A stretch of DNA of 64,000 nt, from assembly GCF_001669775.1 (NCBI RefSeq), contig NZ_LXWK01000016.1, positions 1 through 64,000 on the forward strand. Reading direction: 5' to 3'. The notes under the pieces were generated by a model. The model ran no database searches. It was not told where the DNA came from and was given only the letters and a program-made list of their open reading frames with translations. The position numbers and the translations under genes are program-made. Source of the stretch: Rheinheimera sp. SA_1 (GTDB lineage Bacteria > Pseudomonadota > Gammaproteobacteria > Enterobacterales > Alteromonadaceae). The stretch's first letter is position 1, and each line of letters begins with the position of its first letter. Of this stretch, positions 17,804 through 42,640 are shown in pieces.

Positions 17804-19906
17804 CTAAAACTTTTGTGAGTGTATCCGAGTTTTGTCGAAATTACAGCCAAAATTTTCAGAAACTAAGGTGAAATTTATTGGCGCGTGCAATCCACGTCCT
17901 TGCAGCGCATCAATATGAATTGCCAGACAAATATCGGCGATCTCCAGATTCTCGACATGGGGTGCTATCACCCGGATGCCAATGCCATGACAAATATGGG
18001 TCATGGTCTCGACAAAAAAGCGGGTGTCGGCCTGTTGTAGCGCCCGGATATAACTGCCATCAATTTTGATGTAATCGATATTCAGCCCCTGCAAATAGCG
18101 GAATGAGCTGAAACTGGCGCCAAACCTTTCGATGGTAATTAACGCGCCAGCAGCTTTCACCGCATTGAAGAATTCACCGGCCGAAGCGATGGCGCCTAAG
18201 GTTGCCTGTTCGTTCACTTCAAACACTAATTTTGGTAACTGGTGCTGGTTCGCGCGGATGGTATTGCATAACCAGCGGGTAAACTGGCTGTCGTGCATGG
18301 CGCTTTTACTTAAATTGATGGCAAATGTCTGGCCTTTAAAATTCTGCAGACGGCTTAAAATGTAAGTGACCAGCGCTTTATCCAGCAGCAATGACACACC
18401 AAGCCGGTCGGCCATCGCAAATACATCCGATGACGCCAGTTGTTCACCGTCCGCGCAAAACTTGATGAAGGTTTCGACATACAACAACTGTTGCTGCTGA
18501 TATACCGGCTGTACTTCCATTTCAAACATCCGCTCCATGTCCGCGGAAATATGCAATTCAGTGTTACTGAAACCGGCAGCGGTATCGGAAACCACCGAGC
18601 GGGTGAAATGATGCAGAATTTCCTGCCAGTCGGAGCGTGATTTACCGGTCACCACAGGTTCAAGTTGCAATGCCAGCGCCGGTGATGGCTCGGCCTGTTG
18701 TTTCGCCTGCAAACCATCCAGCCGGCTTAAGCTGGCGCTTAAATCATCGTGTGGCGCCACCGGCAGTAAGGCAATACTGGCAAACCCATGTGGATATTGT
18801 TCAGTGTTAGCAATTTCAAAGGCTTGACGCACATGCATCGCAAATTCCTGCGAACTGGTGGTACCAAGCGTCGCCAGAATGGCAAATTCCGAACCCGACA
18901 ACCGGAACAGTTGGGCATGCTGTAAATTGCGGATCTGCGCCTGCAGCAGGCTGCTGGCTTTTTCGACGTATTGATCACCAGCGGCATAACCCTGGTTGTC
19001 ATTGACATCTTTTAACGATGGCAGTGCCACCAACGCCAGATAAGGCACATTGCCTTCGTCGTCTGGCCCGGCCTGTAAACTTAAATAAGATTGCACCAGC
19101 GCACGACGATTGGGCAGGGCGGTCAGGCTGTCAATATAAGCCTGCTGGTTCAGCTGTTCGGCGCGATCGGTCAGTTCAGTGAAACTACGTTTAACGTTTC
19201 CAACCATATGATTCAGCGCATACACCACAGCGCGCAGCTCTTTGGTCATTGGCAGATAACTTAAAAATTCAAAGCGTTTTTCTGCCAGCATTTCTGCTTG
19301 CTTTTCAATGTCTTTTAATGGTTGTAACACCACAAGCAATAACCAGTGCACCGCCATTAACGCGCCAAGACACAACAGTAAACTGGTCCAGAATACCGCT
19401 TTGGTGTGATCCCACAAACTGCTGTAGGCAAAACCTGGGTGCGCCTGTACTTTTAACACCCCGGCAATCCGCCAGCCGTCGTTTACTTCAGAATTCATCA
19501 CCGGCGGATGCAGCGGAAATAGCTGAATAAACCAGGCGGGGACACCTTGCACTTGCTCCGGGTTATTGCGGTCGAATACCAGTTCTTTTTTGGCGTTGCT
19601 AAAACTGATAGCGAGATAAGAGCCCGAGTCAAAAATGGCGGAAATCATGGTGTCAGCCAGAATCTTGTCATCACCGGATAAATAAGGGGAAATCGATAAA
19701 CCAAGGCTGTTGGCGGTATCCTGCGCCGAGCGCGCCAGTTGGTTGTCCAGATAACTGCGCATATTGCCGGTACTGACCAGCACAGTGGCCGCGAATGTAA
19801 TAATGGCCAATAAAATCAGTAGCACACTGAGCTGCGTACTTAAGGCGACCCCGTGTTTAAACAAGCTGTTGCTGGCGGGTTTAGCAACGTTTTGAGAGTT
19901 TGTCAT
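17804..19906 (-). CDS. lapD: LapD-type c-di-GMP receptor (degenerate GGDEF-EAL)
   Basis: Inner-membrane receptor that binds c-di-GMP and, when bound, holds the protease LapG inactive. The 700-residue protein has two membrane segments bracketing a LapD/MoxY-type periplasmic domain (about 50-170), then a HAMP-like stretch, a GGDEF domain whose catalytic motif is decayed to RLSGSEF, and an EAL domain whose E-A-L is replaced by VETFIKF while INLSKSAM and YIKIDGSYI remain. Loss of both catalytic motifs with fold retained is what LapD shows. ATG 19906 follows AAGGTAG. It is directly downstream of lapG. Confidence 0.88.
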   Translation of the reverse strand: MTNSQNVAKPASNSLFKHGVALSTQLSVLLILLAIITFAATVLVSTGNMRSYLDNQLARSAQDTANSLGLSISPYLSGDDKILADTMISAIFDSGSYLAISFSNAKKELVFDRNNPEQVQGVPAWFIQLFPLHPPVMNSEVNDGWRIAGVLKVQAHPGFAYSSLWDHTKAVFWTSLLLCLGALMAVHWLLLVVLQPLKDIEKQAEMLAEKRFEFLSYLPMTKELRAVVYALNHMVGNVKRSFTELTDRAEQLNQQAYIDSLTALPNRRALVQSYLSLQAGPDDEGNVPYLALVALPSLKDVNDNQGYAAGDQYVEKASSLLQAQIRNLQHAQLFRLSGSEFAILATLGTTSSQEFAMHVRQAFEIANTEQYPHGFASIALLPVAPHDDLSASLSRLDGLQAKQQAEPSPALALQLEPVVTGKSRSDWQEILHHFTRSVVSDTAAGFSNTELHISADMERMFEMEVQPVYQQQQLLYVETFIKFCADGEQLASSDVFAMADRLGVSLLLDKALVTYILSRLQNFKGQTFAINLSKSAMHDSQFTRWLCNTIRANQHQLPKLVFEVNEQATLGAIASAGEFFNAVKAAGALITIERFGASFSSFRYLQGLNIDYIKIDGSYIRALQQADTRFFVETMTHICHGIGIRVIAPHVENLEIADICLAIHIDALQGRGLHAPINFTLVSENFGCNFDKTRIHSQKF

Positions 19907-20017
19907 CACAACTACCTTTTTTTGTCTTGTTTTGGTTGGTGCTAACGAGTGCCAGAGCGGCTGCAGGGTCGGCGCACCCAGCCCGTAGCCGTTGGAATTT
20001 CGCCCGTCAGTCGATTG

Positions 20018-30960: not shown

Positions 30961-30971
30961 AAATGTAACAA

Positions 30972-31003
30972 GGTTCGGAGCTAATGAGCTCCGAACCCTT
31001 TTT
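30972..31003 (+). terminator. Rho-independent terminator closing the first EPS block
   Basis: GGTTCGGAGCT (30972-30982) pairs with AGCTCCGAACC (30987-30997) over 11 bp around AATG, followed by CTTTTT. It stops the transcript of the galU-side sugar block and lies in front of the convergent PEP-CTERM gene. Confidence 0.88.
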
Positions 31004-31006
31004 CAG

Positions 31007-31546
31007 TTATTTAGCTTTGCGACGTAACACCAGGCCTAACAGACCCAGGCCCAATAATGCGATTGGAGCTGGCGTTGGGACGCTGCTGGTCACTGCATCA
31101 GTACGATAAACCATAGTTTCGAAGTACCAGTCATCGCTGTTGTTGACGTCTGCGAACGACCATGCACCTTGTTCACCGTTAACTACATCGATGTGGCTGT
31201 AAGTACCGTTAAACCATTTGCTGGCTTTGGCGTAGTTTTTACCATTGTAGCTTTCGGTATTACCAGAGCTGTAGTTCACTTCAAATACGCTGTAGTCAAA
31301 ACCAAGGCTTTGGAACAAATCAAACGTCATTACTTTCCAGCCGTAAGCTGCCTGAACACTCATGTCGATGGCACTGCAAGTAGAACCAAACAAACCAGAA
31401 CCACAAGGTGATGCCCATGCCAGATCGTAACCTTTAAAGGTAACAAAGGCGTCAGCATCAACCGGGCCATTGGCAATTGGTGCTGCAAATGCAGAACCAG
31501 CGAATAAAGAGGTTGCTAACATGGCCAGTTTCAGTAAATTTTTCAT
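31007..31546 (-). CDS. PEP-CTERM-type exported protein 1
   Basis: A 179-residue exported protein. Signal peptide MKNLLKLAMLATSLFAGSAFA; C-terminus VPTPAPIALLGLGLLGLVLRRKAK, a VPxP motif plus hydrophobic helix plus basic end, which is the PEP-CTERM sorting signal read by an exosortase. The body has NYSSGNTESYNGKNYA and two cysteines (SPCGSGLFGSTCSA) and is not assigned to a family. GGAAG precedes the ATG at 31546. It faces the EPS block convergently. No exosortase gene is in the window. Role in the EPS matrix is inference. Confidence 0.85.
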   Translation of the reverse strand: MKNLLKLAMLATSLFAGSAFAAPIANGPVDADAFVTFKGYDLAWASPCGSGLFGSTCSAIDMSVQAAYGWKVMTFDLFQSLGFDYSVFEVNYSSGNTESYNGKNYAKASKWFNGTYSHIDVVNGEQGAWSFADVNNSDDWYFETMVYRTDAVTSSVPTPAPIALLGLGLLGLVLRRKAK

Positions 31547-31906
31547 TGGGTACTTCCAGTAATTGATGACTTCGATAGCTGGATATTGCACGAGGTGTGC
31601 CAAACTTTATGCTGTTGATTTAATTGAAATATTATCATTGATGAATATTGAGTGTAAAAAATATTGACGCATTAATGTAAGTTTTTTTGTAGTTGTTGAC
31701 TGAAAAATATACACGGTTTCCAGACAAAAACCGCTGAGGCACCGGCTGGCTGTTCGGTTTAGGGAGCTGCAAGTTGAGACGGCTAGTTTGATGGCTGAGT
31801 TGATGACTGGCGTTGATGGCTGGTTTAGAGGGTGGTTTAGATGACTGGTGTTAACTGCTGCTATAGCTGACTTGCGGCAAGCCCAGCGGCGGGCTTGCCG
31901 GTTTCG
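31547..31906. other. Intergenic region with one strong hairpin
   Basis: About 360 bases without a supported gene. It holds the upstream region of the PEP-CTERM gene. From about 31785 to 31860 there is simple TGATGGCTG/GGTTTAG-like repetition. CGGCAAGCCC (31875-31884) pairs with GGGCTTGCCG (31891-31900) over 10 bp just past the end of the small membrane protein gene, probably its terminator although no T run follows. Confidence 0.5.
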
Positions 31907-32197
31907 CTATTGCTGCGCTTCTGCAATTTTTAGCTCCGTCCACTGCTGCAGCAGTTCGATACGTTTGTTGCTGGCCAGTATCATGCTACCGAGAATACCT
32001 ACAAAGCCAAGCAGCAGTGGCGGCGTTATCGTTACATGATCCAGCAGCAATAAAGTTAAACAATACAAGGCCATGATTGCAGTGGCGCTGGCTGGTGCGT
32101 AACTGAGGCGTTGCATTTTTCGCTCTAACACCGCGATTTTTTCCATTTTCTTAAAAGTTTCCAGCGCTGTGATATCTAATGCTGTTTGTATTTTCAT
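31907..32197 (-). CDS. Small two-helix membrane protein, unknown
   Basis: A 96-residue protein: an N-terminal amphipathic or coiled-coil part (TALETFKKMEKIAVLERKMQRL), then two hydrophobic segments (ATAIMALYCLTLLLLDHV and PPLLLGFVGILGSMILAS), then a charged tail (NKRIELLQQWTELKIAEAQQ). AGGA lies nine bases before the ATG at 32197; a start at 32215 is also possible. No family is recognised. It is the first of three minus-strand genes inserted in the EPS region and could form a unit with them. Confidence 0.6.
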   Translation of the reverse strand: MKIQTALDITALETFKKMEKIAVLERKMQRLSYAPASATAIMALYCLTLLLLDHVTITPPLLLGFVGILGSMILASNKRIELLQQWTELKIAEAQQ

Positions 32198-32275
32198 CGG
32201 TGAAGTCCTTGTCATAAAAGTTCTGATGTTAAAAGCTCTAAACCGTAGCGGGCAATTTGCCTGGAGCTTGGTCTA

Positions 32276-32917
32276 TTAATGGGCATTTTGTAGTTTATAG
32301 GTGCGGCGAACCTCGTTTACTAAACGATGACGTGAGCTCTTTAACCTTTCATGCGGTGCAAACAAAGAACTGGCGGCATCCAGTAAATCGACAGCGGCGG
32401 TAAGTCTGTCACGTTGTGCCGCAGACAGCTCAGTCAGGGCTGTCAGTTCATTAATTTGAATAACGGCAAATTCCTTGGCGGCGATATCTTCAGGCAAACC
32501 GGTTTTGGTGCATAACCCATAGATCCCGGCCAGGAAGTGTAGCCATTCCTGTTGGAGATGACTGGCAAATTCTGAAGTTAATTTGGTATTTTCGGTACGG
32601 TGGCCCTGAGTTTTAAGCTGCTCAATAGTGTGGCGGTAACGGTCAGAAAATATCGCAAAGACGGCATCGACGGCAGGCTCACTTTGCAGAACTGCCAGCC
32701 AGGACACATAACCTTTTGCATAATATTCAATTGTTTGCTGTTCGGAGTGCAAACCAAAAAATGAATCGCTGCTTAGCTGCAGATTTAATTTGTATGAACA
32801 TTGAGGCATGACGCCCTGACGCTGAAAATGTGCCAGCTGGTCTGTCGACACTTTAGCCTGTTCAAGGAGCTGTTGCGTGGTTAAAAAGTAGCTATTCAGG
32901 TAATTGATTAATTCCAA
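32276..32917 (-). CDS. Soluble helical protein, possibly DUF6058-like
   Basis: A protein of about 213 residues, mainly helical and without membrane segments. The start ELINYLNSYFLTTQQLLEQAKVSTDQLAHFQRQGVMP looks like a small helix-turn-helix or recognition module, and resembles DUF6058 proteins as remembered; this is tentative. The TTG at 32917, with GGAG ten bases upstream, gives the most family-like N-terminus; an ATG at 32959 is the alternative. Function unknown. Neighbours are small membrane proteins of the same strand. Confidence 0.6.
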   Translation of the reverse strand: MELINYLNSYFLTTQQLLEQAKVSTDQLAHFQRQGVMPQCSYKLNLQLSSDSFFGLHSEQQTIEYYAKGYVSWLAVLQSEPAVDAVFAIFSDRYRHTIEQLKTQGHRTENTKLTSEFASHLQQEWLHFLAGIYGLCTKTGLPEDIAAKEFAVIQINELTALTELSAAQRDRLTAAVDLLDAASSLFAPHERLKSSRHRLVNEVRRTYKLQNAH

Positions 32918-33099
32918 AACCTTCCATCTCCGTTGCAGAACTGCGCAGGGATGCACCATGGCACCGGGCAAATAAAGTAGACTGCATATTAATATTTAAC
33001 CGGCCGTTACGCTACCGTTAAATATAAGGGCGCTGGCTTGCTGAATGTCTTAACGAACGTGTTGTTTTGAGCTTTGCTGATAAATCAGCGCGAGCACTG

Positions 33100-33546
33100 C
33101 TAGCAGCAAAATAGCTTTAACAGCGCAAACAGTACCTGAGCTGCCGCCGACGCCATTAGCAACCAAAAGCCCAGCCATAACATGCGGCGCCGTTTTTGCA
33201 ACTGGCTGCGCACCGTTTTGCTATTCCAGCGCTCAAGTCCCGCGCTGATCTGCCGCTCCCATAAATCATTGTTTTTAGCAATGGCGGCATCAATGTCGGC
33301 GTCACTGAGCGCGCTGGCAAGTTCTTCGGCTTTGGCACGATCACATTTAAATGAAATCATTGCCGAGCGCAGCCAGAACTCACGCGGATTGCTGCGGGAC
33401 AGCGTCTGCAACCGCTCAATGTCGTTAAGCTCGCGGCTTATCTCTTCAAACTGATGTGCATGATTCACTTCGTTCACCAAAAACCAGGCGCCGACAGCGC
33501 CAAGCACAGCAGGCAGTGCGGAAACGATAAAACTTGGGATGTCCAT
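33100..33546 (-). CDS. Small membrane protein with two membrane segments, unknown
   Basis: A 148-residue protein: membrane segment at the N-terminus (FIVSALPAVLGAVGAWFLV), a long helical cytoplasmic part (residues about 28-115) rich in acid-base pairs, and a second membrane segment (MLWLGFWLLMASAAAQVLFALLKLF) ending FCC. AAGGAG stands six bases before the ATG. No family recognised. It is divergent from the giant membrane protein gene at 33826 with 279 bases between, so both could share a control region. Confidence 0.65.
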   Translation of the reverse strand: MDIPSFIVSALPAVLGAVGAWFLVNEVNHAHQFEEISRELNDIERLQTLSRSNPREFWLRSAMISFKCDRAKAEELASALSDADIDAAIAKNNDLWERQISAGLERWNSKTVRSQLQKRRRMLWLGFWLLMASAAAQVLFALLKLFCC

Positions 33547-33825
33547 TGCTGTGCTCCTTAGCTGTGATCAATTACATGGGATGCTACGGGTACAGCATCG
33601 TGGCCTCGCTCTGATAAATGGCAGCAGGTCAAAGCATAGGCCAAAGAGCAGGGTTATTGCTAATGGCAGCAATAGCACAAACCAGAGGCTGCTGACCGGT
33701 GGTATTTCGCCTGGTTTAGGTGCAAGCCGGCAGCTGGCGGTATAAAAATGCGCTGACTTGAAAATTGTATATTTAGTTCTAAGCTCTTTCAGGTACAACT
33801 AAACCACAGCACCAAGGTGGCAACA

Positions 33826-36800
33826 ATGGACGTTAAAGGCAACAGACTAACCGGGCTACTGGTGTTGTTTATCAGTCTGCTTGCCGCACTAGCAGTCGCG
33901 GCACTCTTCTACTTTCTGAAAATCCAGCAAAACGAGCATTACCAAAACCAACTGCATTTTCGCGAGCTCAATCGTTATGTTGAATCATTGGAGCAGAATA
34001 AGCAGTCTTTGGAGGCGGCTTATGATGCTTACAAAATTTACAGTCAGGCAAATTATGGTCTTGTATTTGAATACGATTCTCAGCTGAAAGAAGTTGAAAA
34101 GTCTAGACAGTCAATTGAAAAAAAGTTTCTAAGCAGTCAAATATTAGAGTGCAAAGGTCAAGATTGTAGCTCAGTGTTAATTGATAAATTGGATGAATTA
34201 TATAATGCAAAAAATAATTTGGAATCGAAATTAAGGCGTGAAATTTCCGACACTGTACATTTCGAATTTTCTTACAACGTGGATATCTTAAATGATGTCA
34301 TGAAATGTATTTTTGAACACGACAATATAAGTGATAGTGTAAGTGGCATTCATCGATGTCGAGGTTCTAAAGGGGGTAAAGAAAGTGGTTCTGCTGACGA
34401 TGATTCTTCAGGCGGTGATGGATCTTCTGAATCAGGGAAAGCAACGCATTCGGCGTGTCTTAAAAACGTTAAAGCATGCTTGAATAAACGTGAGAGATAC
34501 ATTCAGTCTGGCATCATTGGTGACGATATTAAACCGAGGAAATTTTCAGAAATATTAAAAAGCTCTAATCTTATACCGCTCATTCTTTTTGTAGACAGCA
34601 CCGGAACGGTGTTACATAAAACCGAGAGTTTATTGAGCGATTCTTCACTGCATGGTCTGCGATTTGAACAGGTTGAGCAAGTCTTGCGCGATTTCGCACT
34701 GTCTCAAGCAAGCCACAAAGATAAAATTTCGGTACATGATATTCCACCTATAAAAAATCAAGGAGGAAGTGGTTTTATCGATACTGCTATTGCGGGTACT
34801 GAATATAGAATATTCCTGCAGCCATGGGCCGGCATCGCCGATGATGCGTCATCTGGAACAGAAATACTTTATTTGATTGGTTTTCAGTCTAGATCGGCGA
34901 TGCTAGGAGATAAACTTTCGGTCAGCAACAGTCTTGTGCTTGTTTTTTCATTATTTCTAATTGGGGTAATAGCGCTCTTGCCTTTGCTGAAAGTTAGGCT
35001 TGTATCAACCCAGCAAGGTTTTAGTTCTAACGATTTAAAAGTAGTTCCTCTGTCATTGGCAATTATTTCTGTGCTAGTTAGCGTTTCGGCATTTCAGTAT
35101 ATATTTTACAACGGAGTGAAAACCTCTGTTGATCAGGTTGCTCAGTCTGCATTTGATGAAATAAAATCATCTTTCAGTTATGAGCTTAAAGTTTGGGAAG
35201 GCAATGCTAAAAACAGATTGCAAGAATTAAAGTCAAGGTCAGGTAATTTCGTAAATGATATAAATATAAAAAACAAAAGTGACGACAGTTTTGATAATGA
35301 ACAGCGTTGCAACATGTTTGGTACGGCAAATCAAATAGATTGTTTATTTTCCTATTCAGGTGCTCAGATAGACTTTATTGAAGGATTATATGAAATAGGC
35401 AGAGATGGCAAAAAGGTAGACAAATTAGGAGCTATTGCTACAAAAGTTCAGAAACGGAAAAACGTCTACAGTGTAAGTGATAGGCATTATGTGACTCATT
35501 CTGCCAATTGTACTGGATGGCATTGGCCGCTTGATGAAAAGTTTGATGAAAAGTTTGATGAAAAGTTTGATGAAAATAAAGATTGCCGCAACACATTTTT
35601 TGTAGAACGATTACGAAATAAAATCGATTTGCGGCTAAATACCTGGGTTGGCATGCCGCAGTTTGAAAAAATATATTCAAAAAACGACGGAACTGATAAG
35701 GAGGAAATTATTATTTTTGGCGGCCAGTTAAAAACATTATTTTTGACTGTAATGCCTAAAGATTTCCGCTTTTTGGTGTTTGATAGTGATAGCGGCGAAG
35801 TGTTGTATCATTCAGACGAATGGTTAAGCAAAATTGATAATATATTCGCTGATACTGATAATGACTTGCATTTGCAAAATTTAGTCAAATCAAAACATGA
35901 CCAATCAAAAAAATTTGAAACCCAATATAAAGGGAAAGACACTGTTTTTCACTTAGGTGCGATTGCTGAAAACGTGCCATGGACTTTAGTCGTCATGTAT
36001 GACAAGAGCCCATATCGATTGCTAAATCTGCTTAGCGCGTTTTCGTCCTGGACTTTGAGTTTTTTCTACTTGTTGCTAGTTTATATCATTTGGCGGGTGT
36101 TGCCTCTCCGGCTGCAACATAAGGTAAATAGCCTCATATGGTTTCGCGCGGACCGGGGCGGTATTTATTCATATGCTATTGTTGCTCTCATGATTAACTT
36201 GATCCTTGCTGCTATTTTGTTCTTGTTTGCATCAGATTTACTTTTGTTTACGGTAATCACTGCATGGATGATTGGTTTTAGTTATTTCTGGGTTGCAAGT
36301 AGCAAGAAATGGGCTGAACCAGTACGAAAACAAGAGAATATAGCCATCAAGCCAACGGCGAAGTCAGCAGGAGCTAATATTAAAAACAAAACTATTTCGG
36401 ATGCATTTTCATACAGCAAAGGCCAGCCTGATTTCATTTTTCGGCACCCATTGTTGGTGTATTCAATGTTCATTTTATTGCTTCTGTTGAATTTCTGTGG
36501 CATTCCTTCTGCGGTGTTTTCCTATCAGTCGTCTGAGTATTTGGTGTTTCGTCAGTCCGAGCTGAATCAGCAATATTTGGAGCATTCTTTAACTGAGCGG
36601 CAAATAGAAATGCGTGAGTATATTGATGAATTTTATGATACTGAAATCTTCACCCAAACGGATAAAAATGAAGTATTACAAAAGGCCACTGTAAATTGTT
36701 ATCCAACGATGCTTTTTGCAAGTATCGATAAAGATCGATGCGACGATCAAAGAAATGGCAGCAACATAAAGACTGAAATATTTGAAAATGCTGCAATAAT

Positions 36801-38418
36801 GTTTAATAGCAATGCTGCAAACAACGTATTTTTTGGCAAAATCCCGTGGGCGCTGACAGATGTTAAATTGCCGTTGTTTAGTCATATTTGGGCGTTGCAA
36901 CAAAATCCCGCCGAAAAGAAACATCAAAGAGAAAATCGAGCAGACATTAGTAAAATATTGAATGTTGCTTCAGGCACACAAGTGTTCTGGACTGGTGTAG
37001 CAACAATGCTCGCATTGCTACTGCTGCTGTTGCTAATCCGCTATTGGCTATGTCGCCGGATGATGGGTCTTGATCGGGTTGAAAACTTCAGGATTAATCC
37101 AGAAAACATCAAAGCTTCCAAATATCAGGCTGCTGATGCACTGTGCAGAATATTGTACCCACATCAAGGCGGTTCGGGTAAGGCTGTTTACCTGCAGCTG
37201 ATTCGCCCTTCAGTTGCTGCGCAAACTTTAGTTAGTTATCACCCGAACAATATACAGACAGCAGATGATACGGGCAAACGCAAAGACGAATGCCTGATTG
37301 CCGGTATTAGTCCAGTTGATGTTTGTGATCTGTTACTGCCCAATAAAACCAGCGACTCAAGTGCACAAGCGGATAAAATGCCGACAATGGTGTTAACCGG
37401 TTTCGAGCCGTTGATTTGGAATAAAGCTTTGCGATTGAAGGTGTTGAAAAAACTACAACAACTGGTCAGCAATGGTAAGGTCAATCTGGTATTGATGATG
37501 GAAATGTCGCCGCTATACCGTTTGACGCAGCCAATAGCCTATGATGAAAAATTTCCGCTTGAACAACAAGCTGACGCCGCTGAGCGTGATGCTTGGGTGA
37601 AATTTTTTGTACGCTTTATCAAAATTTATGACTGGGTGCCGAAATTACGGCATAAACCTCAGTTGGAGAAACCCACAGATGTGCTTTGGTATGAAGCAAA
37701 TAGCTGGCCGGAGTTGGAACATGTTGCGATTCAGTTTTTGGCTTATCACTGCGCAGTTAAAGATCCTGATTTGGAAAAACAGCTTAAGTTAACTGTTAAA
37801 ACTTCAAACAACTACTGTGCAGAATTGGCCAAATGCTGGCAGAAATTCAGTCTGGAATATAAAAATCTGAAAAAACTGTTCGATGACAAAGATAGTGACA
37901 GTACTGTTCTCGACCCACTGCCAATGGTTTACGCTTCAATCAACAAACACTGGACCAAAGAACAAATTATCGATTTCTTTAACTCCACAGCAGCCACCCG
38001 TTATGAAGCTAAGTGGCAGTTGTGCACCATTAAAGAAAAAGTACTGCTGATTAGTATGATTAATGGAGACTTGCCGAATCCACGGAATTCGGTGCCGTTG
38101 GAGCATTTAGTGCGGCGTGGTTATATTTTTTACGATCAAGGCTGGCATATCGTCAACGAAAGTTTTTCCCGTTTTATCGCCACTGCGGAAGATCCTGATA
38201 CTGTGCGGCGCTGGATGCGCGAAGTGTCAGAAAGCTTGTGGAAATATGCACGGATCCCGCTGTTTATCGGGCTATTACTCTTGCTTGGGTTGTTAGCTTA
38301 TACCGCGACCGATTCTTTACAATCATTGATGGCGCTGATGGCGACTATGCTGGGTATTATTCCGGTTATTTTTAACAACATCAGTCTGTTTAAAGGAGGC
38401 AGCAATTCTGGTTCTTAA
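33826..38418 (+). CDS. Giant multi-sensor membrane protein with degenerate NTPase-like and winged-helix regions
   Basis: No named family recognised. The ~1530-residue protein has an N-terminal membrane helix (about 10-30), then three external segments (about 35-370, 430-735 and 890-1045) separated by membrane helices, a cytoplasmic part (about 1070-1470), and two C-terminal helices (about 1475-1520). The first external part begins with a coiled coil and has Cys pairs and a Ser/Gly/Asp-rich linker. In the cytoplasmic part YPHQGGSGKAVYL recalls a broken P-loop and TMVLTGFEPLIW a Walker-B-like strand; EAKWQLCTIKEKVLLISMI... resembles a winged-helix domain. A 12-bp repeat encodes DEKF three times. 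ATG 33826 follows AAGGTGG. Sensor role is inference. Confidence 0.8.
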   Translation: MDVKGNRLTGLLVLFISLLAALAVAALFYFLKIQQNEHYQNQLHFRELNRYVESLEQNKQSLEAAYDAYKIYSQANYGLVFEYDSQLKEVEKSRQSIEKKFLSSQILECKGQDCSSVLIDKLDELYNAKNNLESKLRREISDTVHFEFSYNVDILNDVMKCIFEHDNISDSVSGIHRCRGSKGGKESGSADDDSSGGDGSSESGKATHSACLKNVKACLNKRERYIQSGIIGDDIKPRKFSEILKSSNLIPLILFVDSTGTVLHKTESLLSDSSLHGLRFEQVEQVLRDFALSQASHKDKISVHDIPPIKNQGGSGFIDTAIAGTEYRIFLQPWAGIADDASSGTEILYLIGFQSRSAMLGDKLSVSNSLVLVFSLFLIGVIALLPLLKVRLVSTQQGFSSNDLKVVPLSLAIISVLVSVSAFQYIFYNGVKTSVDQVAQSAFDEIKSSFSYELKVWEGNAKNRLQELKSRSGNFVNDINIKNKSDDSFDNEQRCNMFGTANQIDCLFSYSGAQIDFIEGLYEIGRDGKKVDKLGAIATKVQKRKNVYSVSDRHYVTHSANCTGWHWPLDEKFDEKFDEKFDENKDCRNTFFVERLRNKIDLRLNTWVGMPQFEKIYSKNDGTDKEEIIIFGGQLKTLFLTVMPKDFRFLVFDSDSGEVLYHSDEWLSKIDNIFADTDNDLHLQNLVKSKHDQSKKFETQYKGKDTVFHLGAIAENVPWTLVVMYDKSPYRLLNLLSAFSSWTLSFFYLLLVYIIWRVLPLRLQHKVNSLIWFRADRGGIYSYAIVALMINLILAAILFLFASDLLLFTVITAWMIGFSYFWVASSKKWAEPVRKQENIAIKPTAKSAGANIKNKTISDAFSYSKGQPDFIFRHPLLVYSMFILLLLLNFCGIPSAVFSYQSSEYLVFRQSELNQQYLEHSLTERQIEMREYIDEFYDTEIFTQTDKNEVLQKATVNCYPTMLFASIDKDRCDDQRNGSNIKTEIFENAAIMFNSNAANNVFFGKIPWALTDVKLPLFSHIWALQQNPAEKKHQRENRADISKILNVASGTQVFWTGVATMLALLLLLLLIRYWLCRRMMGLDRVENFRINPENIKASKYQAADALCRILYPHQGGSGKAVYLQLIRPSVAAQTLVSYHPNNIQTADDTGKRKDECLIAGISPVDVCDLLLPNKTSDSSAQADKMPTMVLTGFEPLIWNKALRLKVLKKLQQLVSNGKVNLVLMMEMSPLYRLTQPIAYDEKFPLEQQADAAERDAWVKFFVRFIKIYDWVPKLRHKPQLEKPTDVLWYEANSWPELEHVAIQFLAYHCAVKDPDLEKQLKLTVKTSNNYCAELAKCWQKFSLEYKNLKKLFDDKDSDSTVLDPLPMVYASINKHWTKEQIIDFFNSTAATRYEAKWQLCTIKEKVLLISMINGDLPNPRNSVPLEHLVRRGYIFYDQGWHIVNESFSRFIATAEDPDTVRRWMREVSESLWKYARIPLFIGLLLLLGLLAYTATDSLQSLMALMATMLGIIPVIFNNISLFKGGSNSGS
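35533..35576 (+). repeat. 12-bp in-frame tandem repeat (GATGAAAAGTTT)
   Basis: Three exact copies of GATGAAAAGTTT plus a partial fourth lie inside the giant membrane protein gene, coding (DEKF)3-DEN in its second external region. The unit is a multiple of three, so copy number can change without breaking the frame. Confidence 0.95.
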
Positions 38419-38559
38419 AGGAACCAAATGTGGTGTGAACAGTGACTGCGATACAGTTCATGGTGACAGTCTGCGCGCTTTAATGCGATAGTAGACCTTT
38501 GATTGCAACCTTATGATGTATCATCAATAATCGCTGTCACACCACACAGGGAACTGCTG

Positions 38560-39198: not shown

Positions 39199-40181
39199 GT
39201 GCGGTGCTGCGGATTGCGGTTCTAATCACCTGTTTTAACCGGCAGCAGAAAACCCTACAATGCCTGCAAATGTTGGCGTCGCAATTACATTTTTCTGTGC
39301 AATGTTCTGTGCAATGTTCTGTGCATTCGTCGCATGACAATCAACCCGCAGTAGCTGCAGAGTGCACTGTCTATTTGCTGGATAACGGCAACGACGGCAC
39401 TTTTGCAGCTGTAGCTGCCCAATTTCCCTGGGTGCAATTAAGTCGTGGCCATGCCGATTTATATTGGAACAGCGGTATGCGCCGGGTTTGGCTGCAGGCG
39501 CTGAGCCATTCTGCAACAACACCGCCATTCGATTTTTACCTCTGGCTCAATGATGATGTCAGTTTAGCGCCGGATGCAATTTACCGTCTGCTGCAAAACT
39601 ATCTGCGGTCTACGCCAACTGCCGGTGCCTTGATTGGGTCTATGGCGGCGCCATCTTCGGCTACAACAGCTTCCGCCACATCTGGTTCTAACCAGCAACC
39701 TGTTCCCAGCTACGGTGGCCGACAGCGAAAGTCGCGCTTGAATCCGCTGGCGTTTGGCCCGGTCATGCTGCCAACCCCGCAGCCGCAGCTATGTACATTT
39801 ATCAATGGCAATTTATGCCTGATCCCACAAGCGGCGGTACAAAAGATTGGGGTGTTATCAGAACATTTCAGCCATGGCCTGGGTGATTTTGACTATGGTT
39901 TGCGTCTGCAACAAGCCGGTTTTGCCACCTATGTCGCGCCGGGTTTTTATGGCGAATGTGCGGTGAACCCAAAAATAGGCTCGGTATTTGATGAAACTCT
40001 GCCGTTGGCGCAGCGCCTTCTGATGATGCAACGACCCAATGTGCTGCCGCCTGACGCCGAGTGGCGATATTTTGTACGTTGTCATGGTGGCTGGGTATGG
40101 CCGTTGTTATGGCTGAAGTCGTGGGGGCGCCAATTGTTTCCGGCATTATGGCTACGGCTGCGCCAGCGAAGGGCAGCCTGA
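39195..40181 (+). CDS. Glycosyltransferase family 2
   Basis: GT-A type inverting glycosyltransferase of 328 residues. The start IAVLITCFNRQQKTLQCLQML is the nucleotide-binding strand of GT2 enzymes, followed by LYWNSGMRRVW and WLNDDVSLAPDAI with the DxD-like metal site, and a later HFSHGLGDFDYGLRLQQAGF acceptor loop, like rhamnosyl- or related transferases. Between the first two motifs a 12-bp DNA repeat codes CSVQCSVQCSVH. It overlaps the genes on each side, so it belongs to a tightly coupled run. Confidence 0.9.
   Translation: MSAVLRIAVLITCFNRQQKTLQCLQMLASQLHFSVQCSVQCSVHSSHDNQPAVAAECTVYLLDNGNDGTFAAVAAQFPWVQLSRGHADLYWNSGMRRVWLQALSHSATTPPFDFYLWLNDDVSLAPDAIYRLLQNYLRSTPTAGALIGSMAAPSSATTASATSGSNQQPVPSYGGRQRKSRLNPLAFGPVMLPTPQPQLCTFINGNLCLIPQAAVQKIGVLSEHFSHGLGDFDYGLRLQQAGFATYVAPGFYGECAVNPKIGSVFDETLPLAQRLLMMQRPNVLPPDAEWRYFVRCHGGWVWPLLWLKSWGRQLFPALWLRLRQRRAA
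39293..39328 (+). repeat. 12-bp in-frame tandem repeat (TTCTGTGCAATG)
   Basis: Two exact and one imperfect copy of TTCTGTGCAATG inside the GT2 gene, coding a CSVQCSVQ-like insertion in a surface loop near the N-terminus. The frame is kept whatever the copy number. Confidence 0.9.
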
Positions 40182-42640
40182 TGAACCTCAATCCAACGCC
40201 AACCAGGCGACTGCTGATTATCCAGCAGGTATTGAAGCAATATCGACTGGCTTTTTATCAGCAATTAGCTGAGCAACTGGCCGCGGATGGCATTGAACTC
40301 ACCCTGTGTTTTAGCTTGCCACAAGCAGCCGATGTCGCCAAAGCTGACAATGTCACTGCACCGCCAGGGAGTTATGCACAGCTGGTCCCACTACGTCAGT
40401 TTGGGCCACTGGTGTGGCAACAGGTGCCGCAGGTAACGGAATTTGATCTGGTGATTGTCGAGCAAGCTAATCGCCATCTGCTGAATTACCTGCTGTTGCT
40501 GCGACGGCTGCTTCGGCCAAGCCCGAAGCTGATTTTTTGGGGCCATGGTTTTAATCATCAGGCACCGGCAGGTATTTGGTCTTCGCTAAAAGAGCGCTAT
40601 AAAAAAACGCTGTTGCGCCATGCCGATGGCTTTTTTGCGTACACCGCACCGGTGGCACGTTATGCACAAACGCAAGGTGTGGCCGCGCATCGGATCACGG
40701 TGCTGAATAACAGCATCGACACCGCTGCTTTTGCCGCGCAAGTACGCACGCTGCGTTTACAAATGCGCCAACAACTGCCTTTCGACGACAGCCCGGGTTT
40801 TACCTTATTGTTTTGTGGCGCTTTATATCCGGATAAGAAAATTCCGTTGTTGTTGCAAACAGCCCGGGTTCTGGCCGACCACAAACTGCTAAAGCGGTTG
40901 ATCGTGCTTGGCGATGGGCCGGATCGTAATTTGTTGCTAAACGGGCCAACACCACCCTGGCTGGATTACCGCGGCCCCTGTTTTGGCGACGACAAAGCCG
41001 CGGCTTATGCACAAGCCGATTTGGTGTTGCATCCAGGTTTGTTAGGGCTGGCCGTGCTGGATGCATTTGCTGCCGGATTGCCACTGGTCACGACTAATTT
41101 TAGTGGTCATAGCCCGGAGTTGGCGTATCTGGAACACGGCAGCAATGGCTTGATCATTGAAGAAAAAGGATTAGCGGCACGGGTGCTGCAACTGTTGCAA
41201 ACACCGGCGGAATTAGCCCATTTGGCGCAAGGTGCTGCACAAAGCGCGGCAACATACAGTTTACCGGCGATGGTACAGGCGTTTGCCGCTGGTGTGCGCC
41301 AAGCGTTGCGAGAGGGCGACGATACCGCAGCAATCAGCACCGTTCCTGCGCCAGATCTGGCGATGTCAGCCGCTTCGGTCTCGTCGCGGCCGCTGCGGGT
41401 GCTGCAGATCCATAACTTTTACCAGCAACCTGGTGGTGAAGATGTGGTGGTGCAAAATGAAGCCTTGTTGCTGCAACAAGCCGGGGTGGCGCTGCAAACC
41501 TGGTACGTCGACAGCGCTTCGATCCCAACGCACAGCCATTGGTGGTCGAAGCTGCAGTTTGCCATTGATTTATGCTGGAACCGGCAAGCGCAACAACAGC
41601 TACGTGCCAGATTGCAGGCACAACCGGTGGATATTATTCATCTGCATAACACGTTTCCGTTGTTGTCGCCGGCGCTTATTCAGACGGCACACGCGCTCGG
41701 TGTGCCGTTGGTTTTGACCGTGCATAACTTTCGCTGGTGTCATCCATCCGGTTGTATTCAAAGTCTGGCGGATGTAGGAACATGCCCTTGGCGGTATCTG
41801 GGGCAGCCTGTGTATCGAAACTCCCGTTTCGCCACAGCGTTGCTGCTGGTAAACATACAACTCCATCAGTGGTTTGGCACTTATAAGCTCTGTGCGCGGC
41901 TGCTATGCCCGTCGCAATTTGTCGTCAATGCGTTATTACAGGCCGGTTTTAATAAGCAGCTGCTGCAGCTAAAACCACATTCGGTAGCCCCAGACATTGC
42001 TGATAACCATATTGCTAACGACCAAGTTAGCGGCGTTGGCAACAAGGCCGCAACTGCCGGTTACGCATTATTTGTTGGACGTGCCGATGCGGCAAAAGGG
42101 CTGTATTTTTTACTGGATGCCTGGCAACAACTGGCTTATCCGCTATGGATTGTCGGGGTTAGCGAACAACAGGCAGCGCAGTGGTCAGGGTATAAGCCTA
42201 ATCCTTGGGTGCGTTTTTTAGGCGCACAACCGCAATCCGCGTTAGGTGGGCTTTATCAGCGGGCAACATTGTTACTGGTCCCGTCGTTAGTGGCGGAAAC
42301 CTTTGGCAATGTGGTGATTGAAGCGTTTTCCCATGGCACCCCTTGTCTGGTCAGCGACATCGGTGGCTTGCCGGAACTGCTGTGGCCGAGGCACAATGCA
42401 GAGAAATTGGGGCATGAGCCTGAGCCAGGCAGCGCCGGTCAGGTTTTTGCTGCCGGAAACGCTGCCGATTTTTGCATGAAAGTTCAGGCATTATTGAATA
42501 ACCCAGGGTTGTTGCTGCAAATGTCACAACAAGCACAGCAACTGTATAAGACGTACTATTTACCGCAGCACAATCAGCAGGCGCTGTTGGCCTGTTATCA
42601 GCAAGTGCTGGCGGAACAAGGAAAAGTAGTGGGTGGTTAA
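40181..42640 (+). CDS. Two-domain GT4-GT4 glycosyltransferase fusion
   Basis: An 819-residue protein made of two complete GT-B glycosyltransferases. Domain one (about 1-375) has RLLIIQQVLKQYRLAFYQQLAEQL, FWGHGFNHQAP, LLFCGALYPDKKIPLLLQTA, LGDGPDRN and VLDAFAAGLPLVTTNFSG. A linker of about 40 residues follows. Domain two (about 420-810) starts LRVLQIHNFYQQPGGEDVVVQNEA and has IHLHNTFPLLSPA, ALFVGRADAAKGLYFLLDAW and PSLVAETFGNVVIEAFSHGTPCLVSDIGGLPE. The ATG 40181 overlaps the GT2 stop. It could add two successive sugars; donors unknown. No internal stop or start suggests a sequencing join. Confidence 0.88.
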   Translation: MNLNPTPTRRLLIIQQVLKQYRLAFYQQLAEQLAADGIELTLCFSLPQAADVAKADNVTAPPGSYAQLVPLRQFGPLVWQQVPQVTEFDLVIVEQANRHLLNYLLLLRRLLRPSPKLIFWGHGFNHQAPAGIWSSLKERYKKTLLRHADGFFAYTAPVARYAQTQGVAAHRITVLNNSIDTAAFAAQVRTLRLQMRQQLPFDDSPGFTLLFCGALYPDKKIPLLLQTARVLADHKLLKRLIVLGDGPDRNLLLNGPTPPWLDYRGPCFGDDKAAAYAQADLVLHPGLLGLAVLDAFAAGLPLVTTNFSGHSPELAYLEHGSNGLIIEEKGLAARVLQLLQTPAELAHLAQGAAQSAATYSLPAMVQAFAAGVRQALREGDDTAAISTVPAPDLAMSAASVSSRPLRVLQIHNFYQQPGGEDVVVQNEALLLQQAGVALQTWYVDSASIPTHSHWWSKLQFAIDLCWNRQAQQQLRARLQAQPVDIIHLHNTFPLLSPALIQTAHALGVPLVLTVHNFRWCHPSGCIQSLADVGTCPWRYLGQPVYRNSRFATALLLVNIQLHQWFGTYKLCARLLCPSQFVVNALLQAGFNKQLLQLKPHSVAPDIADNHIANDQVSGVGNKAATAGYALFVGRADAAKGLYFLLDAWQQLAYPLWIVGVSEQQAAQWSGYKPNPWVRFLGAQPQSALGGLYQRATLLLVPSLVAETFGNVVIEAFSHGTPCLVSDIGGLPELLWPRHNAEKLGHEPEPGSAGQVFAAGNAADFCMKVQALLNNPGLLLQMSQQAQQLYKTYYLPQHNQQALLACYQQVLAEQGKVVGG

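Follow-up and report, generated by a model that had tools for sequence, protein, structure and literature searches.

A new family of multi-pass membrane proteins combining a supported extracellular dCache fold with a likely cytoplasmic STAND-like module devoid of Walker A

A 64,000-nucleotide stretch of Rheinheimera sp. SA_1 DNA (hereafter, the window) contains a gene for a large membrane protein that, on balance, we read as a single-protein transmembrane receptor, with a dCache domain outside the cell and a STAND-like/winged-helix output without an ATP-binding loop inside it. The protein belongs to a new, unnamed family in which known domains are combined in an unusual way.

The gene was confirmed as one open frame of 1530 aa starting with ATG at position 33826, and a GTG start at 33817 would give 1533 aa. 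The ATG is the likelier start because AAGG lies just upstream of it; the start region of the gene is conserved among homologues. Residue numbers of the protein parts are counted from the GTG at 33817. Ten membrane helices were located from hydropathy, and the same pattern recurs in the homologues. Lysine and arginine (K+R) are more frequent in the cytoplasmic than in the outside near-membrane stretches. A layout of three outside segments, a cytoplasmic part of approximately 400 residues, and a closing hairpin is thus well supported. The initial annotation, made from the DNA letters, had described a membrane protein of about 1530 residues with three separate external segments and two closing helices. 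The single frame and the hydropathy bear out the first of these points; hydropathy, the K+R bias, and the recurrence in homologues bear out the second; and hydropathy and the model of the cytoplasmic part bear out the third. The gene and its parts are as follows, with the basis of each assignment in parentheses.

33826-38418, + strand: whole gene (frame, upstream AAGG, conserved start region in homologues)
33853-33909, + strand: TM1, residues 13-31, running into a long predicted helix (hydropathy, model)
33910-34932, + strand: external segment 1, residues 32-372 (model, conservation)
34933-35091, + strand: TM2 and TM3 hairpin, residues 373-391 and 407-425 (hydropathy, model)
35104-36030, + strand: external segment 2, predicted dCache, residues 430-738 (VIA, Pfam, invariant residues)
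36052-36504, + strand: TM4-TM7, residues 746-764, 787-805, 808-826, and 878-896 (hydropathy, model)
36505-36981, + strand: external segment 3, residues 897-1055, helical, low model confidence (model)
36982-37038, + strand: TM8, residues 1056-1074 (hydropathy, models)
37105-37641, + strand: putative pseudo nucleotide-binding core, residues 1097-1275 (model, fold match, motif table)
37168-37182, + strand: 'GGSGK' string, residues 1118-1122, before strand 1 (model, motif table)
37951-38196, + strand: winged-helix domain, residues 1379-1460 (model, conservation)
38254-38373, + strand: closing hairpin TM9-TM10, residues 1480-1498 and 1501-1519 (hydropathy, model, conservation)

The external part was modelled with AlphaFold over residues 1-1090 using 43 homologues (pLDDT 68.7, pTM 0.70). 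In the model and the topology, segment 2 has a long N-terminal helix that bears two PAS-like subdomains, and it is set between two membrane helices. When residues ~430-738 were compared with known structures using VIA, the dCache structures 8w7p (Z 14.4 over 227 residues), PctB (14.2), and DctB (13.8) were matched, and the 50 listed PDB entries (Z ~12-14.4) were nearly all Cache-type sensor domains. The Pfam model dCache_1 (PF02743) matched 10 of 42 members at E <= 0.1 (best 1.3e-5); it gave no match to the dCache of the window protein itself. Five residues of the segment (R556, Y558, G660, H665, and Y704) are invariant in 43 sequences. The modelling and these matches support the assignment of external segment 2 as a dCache ligand-binding domain, in keeping with the Cache or sensor fold that the initial annotation had proposed to look for on the outside. 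An exact 12-base tandem repeat (window positions 35531-35576) lies within the dCache-bearing segment and encodes a repeated FDEK.

The conserved core of segment 1 (residues 245-360) is modelled with a Cache/PAS-like strand order (two strands, a helix, and three strands), and segment 1 is probably a second, single-Cache-like domain, although it had no sequence match in Pfam or the PDB. External segment 3 is modelled as helices, with low confidence. The external parts differ strongly in length among homologues, with segment 1 ranging from 132 to 773 aa. A phylum-wide search with the dCache profile for distant relatives of other architectures returned, outside the family, nothing better than weak matches.

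Among prokaryotes, no extracellular sensor is commoner than the Cache domain. A published survey lists the known output classes reported with it, none of which is STAND-like (PMC4822843). Like the dCache receptors PctA/PctB, DctB, Mlp24, and the dCache sensor kinases, the window protein would have a dCache with conserved residues set between a pair of membrane helices. It departs from them in its additional external domains, its ten membrane helices, and its output, which falls outside the kinases, chemoreceptors, cyclases, and other classes of that survey.

For the cytoplasmic output part, an AlphaFold model of residues 1045-1533 was obtained (pLDDT 77.9, pTM 0.74). Strands 1 to 5 of its core are separated, in turn, by a helix, helices, a helix, and helices; next come a helical part, the winged helix, and a pair of membrane helices. 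The strand order of the core is that of AAA+/STAND proteins. Most of the top structural matches from VIA were STAND proteins, with alignments spanning model residues 53-428. Over the core and winged helix, these included the plant NLRs WRR4A (Z 11.1 over 252 residues), RPP1 (10.2), and NRC4 (9.2), as well as PABY2304 (10.4), CED-4 (9.0), and Sso1545 (9.0). Because plain AAA+ domains also matched the cytoplasmic part at Z 8-9, to which the Z of 9-11 of the STAND proteins is only modestly superior, and because Foldseek alone gave no match below E 0.001 for this part, the STAND assignment is likely rather than certain. A search of the viral structures in BFVD returned generic AAA matches only. 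The cytoplasmic block is thus likely to be a STAND/NB-ARC-like AAA+ core followed by a winged-helix domain; the STAND/AAA-like fold and the winged-helix-like stretch that had been suspected from the sequence both have counterparts in the model.

The core appears to have lost its nucleotide site. The initial annotation had pointed to a decayed P-loop-like GGSGK and, from it, to nucleotide binding. The string is present, occupying model residues 74-78, but it immediately precedes strand 1 (81-85) instead of following it, and it is not conserved, being missing from homologues; its position and its absence from homologues rule it out as a decayed P-loop. The position of Walker A after strand 1 reads RPSV in the window protein. 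The motif GxxxxGK[ST] is absent from this structural site in all 43 aligned sequences, and no Walker A was found anywhere in the cytoplasmic part among 61 members. In the Walker B region at the end of strand 3, E1197 is common and D occurs in one clade only; the window protein has TGFE. As no member has a Walker A, the family would be a pseudo-NTPase family throughout, and, as judged by motif, the window protein is not a nucleotide-binding protein.

Conservation peaks in the winged helix (mean pairwise identity 0.51, 80-82 residues), followed by the closing hairpin (identity 0.40), which has a constant 56 residues across the family. As the best conserved parts, the two are likely to form the output unit. 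The conservation of the winged helix and its membrane-proximal surroundings also accord with a membrane-anchored one-component transcription regulator of CadC/ToxR-like logic, in which the winged helix would bind DNA and the AAA-like part would be a mere spacer. We consider such a regulator unlikely, as the modelled winged helix sits where STAND proteins have theirs packed against the NTPase core, carries no net positive charge (9 K+R vs 10 D+E), and is flanked by a membrane helix on one side and the membrane hairpin on the other. In a phylum-wide search, the winged-helix profile produced nothing stronger than weak matches outside the family, the best of which looked like chance on inspection. 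The idea that a wider family with active P-loops shares the winged-helix motif was not confirmed.

Compared with the STAND NTPases (NLR NB-ARC proteins, CED-4, and PABY2304), which are the best structural matches, the modelled module arranges its AAA+-like core, helical part, and winged helix in the same order. The family differs from them in having no Walker A, no cytoplasmic repeat sensor, and no fused enzymatic effector, and the window protein is integral in the membrane and would sense outside.

A total of 61 family members were compared, with a tree and alignment of 43 sequences and neighbours from 62 loci. The relatives are approximately 1300-1900 aa long and occur as a single copy per genome in whole-genome searches. 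Within the taxonomic family, 36 of the 197 genomes sampled gave a match (three of these being weak and partial); the corresponding counts are 2 of 22 for the genus, 3 of 129 for the order, and 3 of 398 for the phylum sample. Among the relatives that have a name are Colwellia chukchiensis, Paraglaciecola, Aliiglaciecola, Aliikangiella, Nitrosomonas, and Microbulbifer. In the 43-sequence tree, Nitrosomonas nests among Alteromonadaceae, which points to horizontal transfer. No model in Pfam, NCBIfam, or PADLOC names the protein, either whole or in pieces (NCBIfam and PADLOC were searched with the window protein only), and sequence searches of the PDB with the protein and with profiles, of viral contigs, and of plasmids and phages (by tblastn) returned no match. 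No description of this architecture was found in the literature searched. The statement of the initial annotation that no described family has this order therefore stands, in that the homologues have no known name in Pfam and the window protein has no match in NCBIfam or PADLOC.

Two irregular copies were observed. Genome G036 contains the decayed remnant of a second family member (L094:9755-10063), of which only the winged helix and hairpin are left, in a broken frame, and the copy at L090 (genome G805) has its C-terminal end in another frame, with the winged helix split from the hairpin, and is probably frameshifted. In Paraglaciecola/Aliiglaciecola and close kin (L028, L029, L030, and relatives), the gene repeatedly lies between a short DUF2750-like gene (named by eye) and recB/recC-like genes, a stable and apparently unrelated site.

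Inactive STANDs have been proposed as conformational sensors in MoxR-vWA (PMC7159879) and BREX (PMC12839542) systems. The iSTAND of the former (PF19995) and BrxB of the latter share with the window protein the putative inactive STAND; the window protein differs in keeping a full winged-helix domain and in carrying an external dCache. None of the 43 members matched the PF19995 profile at E <= 0.1, and neither MoxR/vWA nor BREX genes are among the conserved neighbours of the family loci. As the family has neither their profile nor their neighbours, the likeness would be at most an analogy. When iSTAND PF19995 proteins were sought for profile comparison, one match, an McrB-like protein, was obtained.

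The sensors of those systems (PMC7159879, PMC12839542), together with the patchy occurrence of the family, its spread by horizontal transfer, its rapid divergence, and the insertion of the gene in a variable locus, would fit a conflict or defence protein, with an inactive STAND as the sensor, the closing hairpin as a membrane-acting effector, and rapid turnover by horizontal transfer. This role is quite improbable, given that the window protein had no PADLOC match, that no PF19995 match and no defence partners were found, and that many copies adjoin apparent housekeeping genes such as recB/recC; the conserved dCache residues also point to a fixed small ligand and not to an arms race.

As the initial annotation had stated, the gene sits inside an exopolysaccharide (EPS) locus, with genes for glycosyltransferases, WecG, WcaJ, a Wzc-like protein, and GDP-mannose around it. 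Three other genes of the window were observed in passing. A small secreted protein (31007-31603, - strand) ends in VPTPAPIALLGLGLLGLVLRRKAK, a PEP-CTERM-like sorting tail by eye with no NCBIfam match. One 859-residue frame (40061-42640, + strand) has two stretches that match several glycosyltransferase models and represent two glycosyltransferase units in a single protein. On the other side of the EPS locus, a LapD-like c-di-GMP receptor (17804-19909, - strand) matched NF045673 at E 3e-97, below the curated cut-off.

The syntenic EPS locus of the congener G007 carries a WecG homologue (80% identical) followed 75 bases on by an acetyltransferase homologue. The following block is absent from it.

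30961-38502, no strand assigned: block that contains the gene along with a few genes on the minus strand and is missing from the EPS locus of G007

The initial annotation had suggested that the protein could signal to EPS genes or divergent partners, and the position of the gene between glycosyltransferase and acetyltransferase genes, with the same downstream neighbours in the congener G020, would suit a dedicated regulator of the surrounding EPS genes. That role is highly improbable: the homologues lie elsewhere, with no conserved EPS neighbours, and no conserved neighbour or partner gene was found across the 62 loci beyond local synteny within small genome groups. Nor is the gene a conserved component of the EPS locus, being absent from the G007 locus and present in only 2 of the 22 genomes of the genus. 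Its GC content is 39.7% vs 50.6% in the flanks (-10.9 points), compared with a family mean of -1.7 (SD 2.0). A search for repeats at the edges of an insertion found none. The most plausible view is that an acquired gene, apparently a recent arrival, landed in the EPS locus, with loss in G007, the one comparison available, as the alternative, and on present evidence the protein is not an EPS regulator.

We therefore return to the transmembrane receptor. The dCache, probably with the second, single-Cache-like domain, would bind a small molecule outside the cell, and the ligand-induced change would pass through the membrane helices to the cytoplasmic STAND/NLR-like module. Since the ATP-binding loop is lost, the STAND-like core would switch by conformation or oligomerisation and not by ATP. 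The change in the core could then expose or move the winged helix and closing hairpin, which, as the conserved output unit, may act on a partner encoded elsewhere.

More tentatively, the family may represent a new class of bacterial surface receptor, one whose Cache domain, on binding its ligand outside the cell, directly drives a nucleotide-independent NLR/STAND-type switch in the same protein; we regard this as possible, though somewhat doubtful. If true, the combination of dCache with a pseudo-STAND/winged-helix module would add an output type to the Cache receptors. The family would raise the question of how a STAND-like switch works without nucleotide and, being compact and single-gene, would put this question within reach of a single deletion and a single purified domain.
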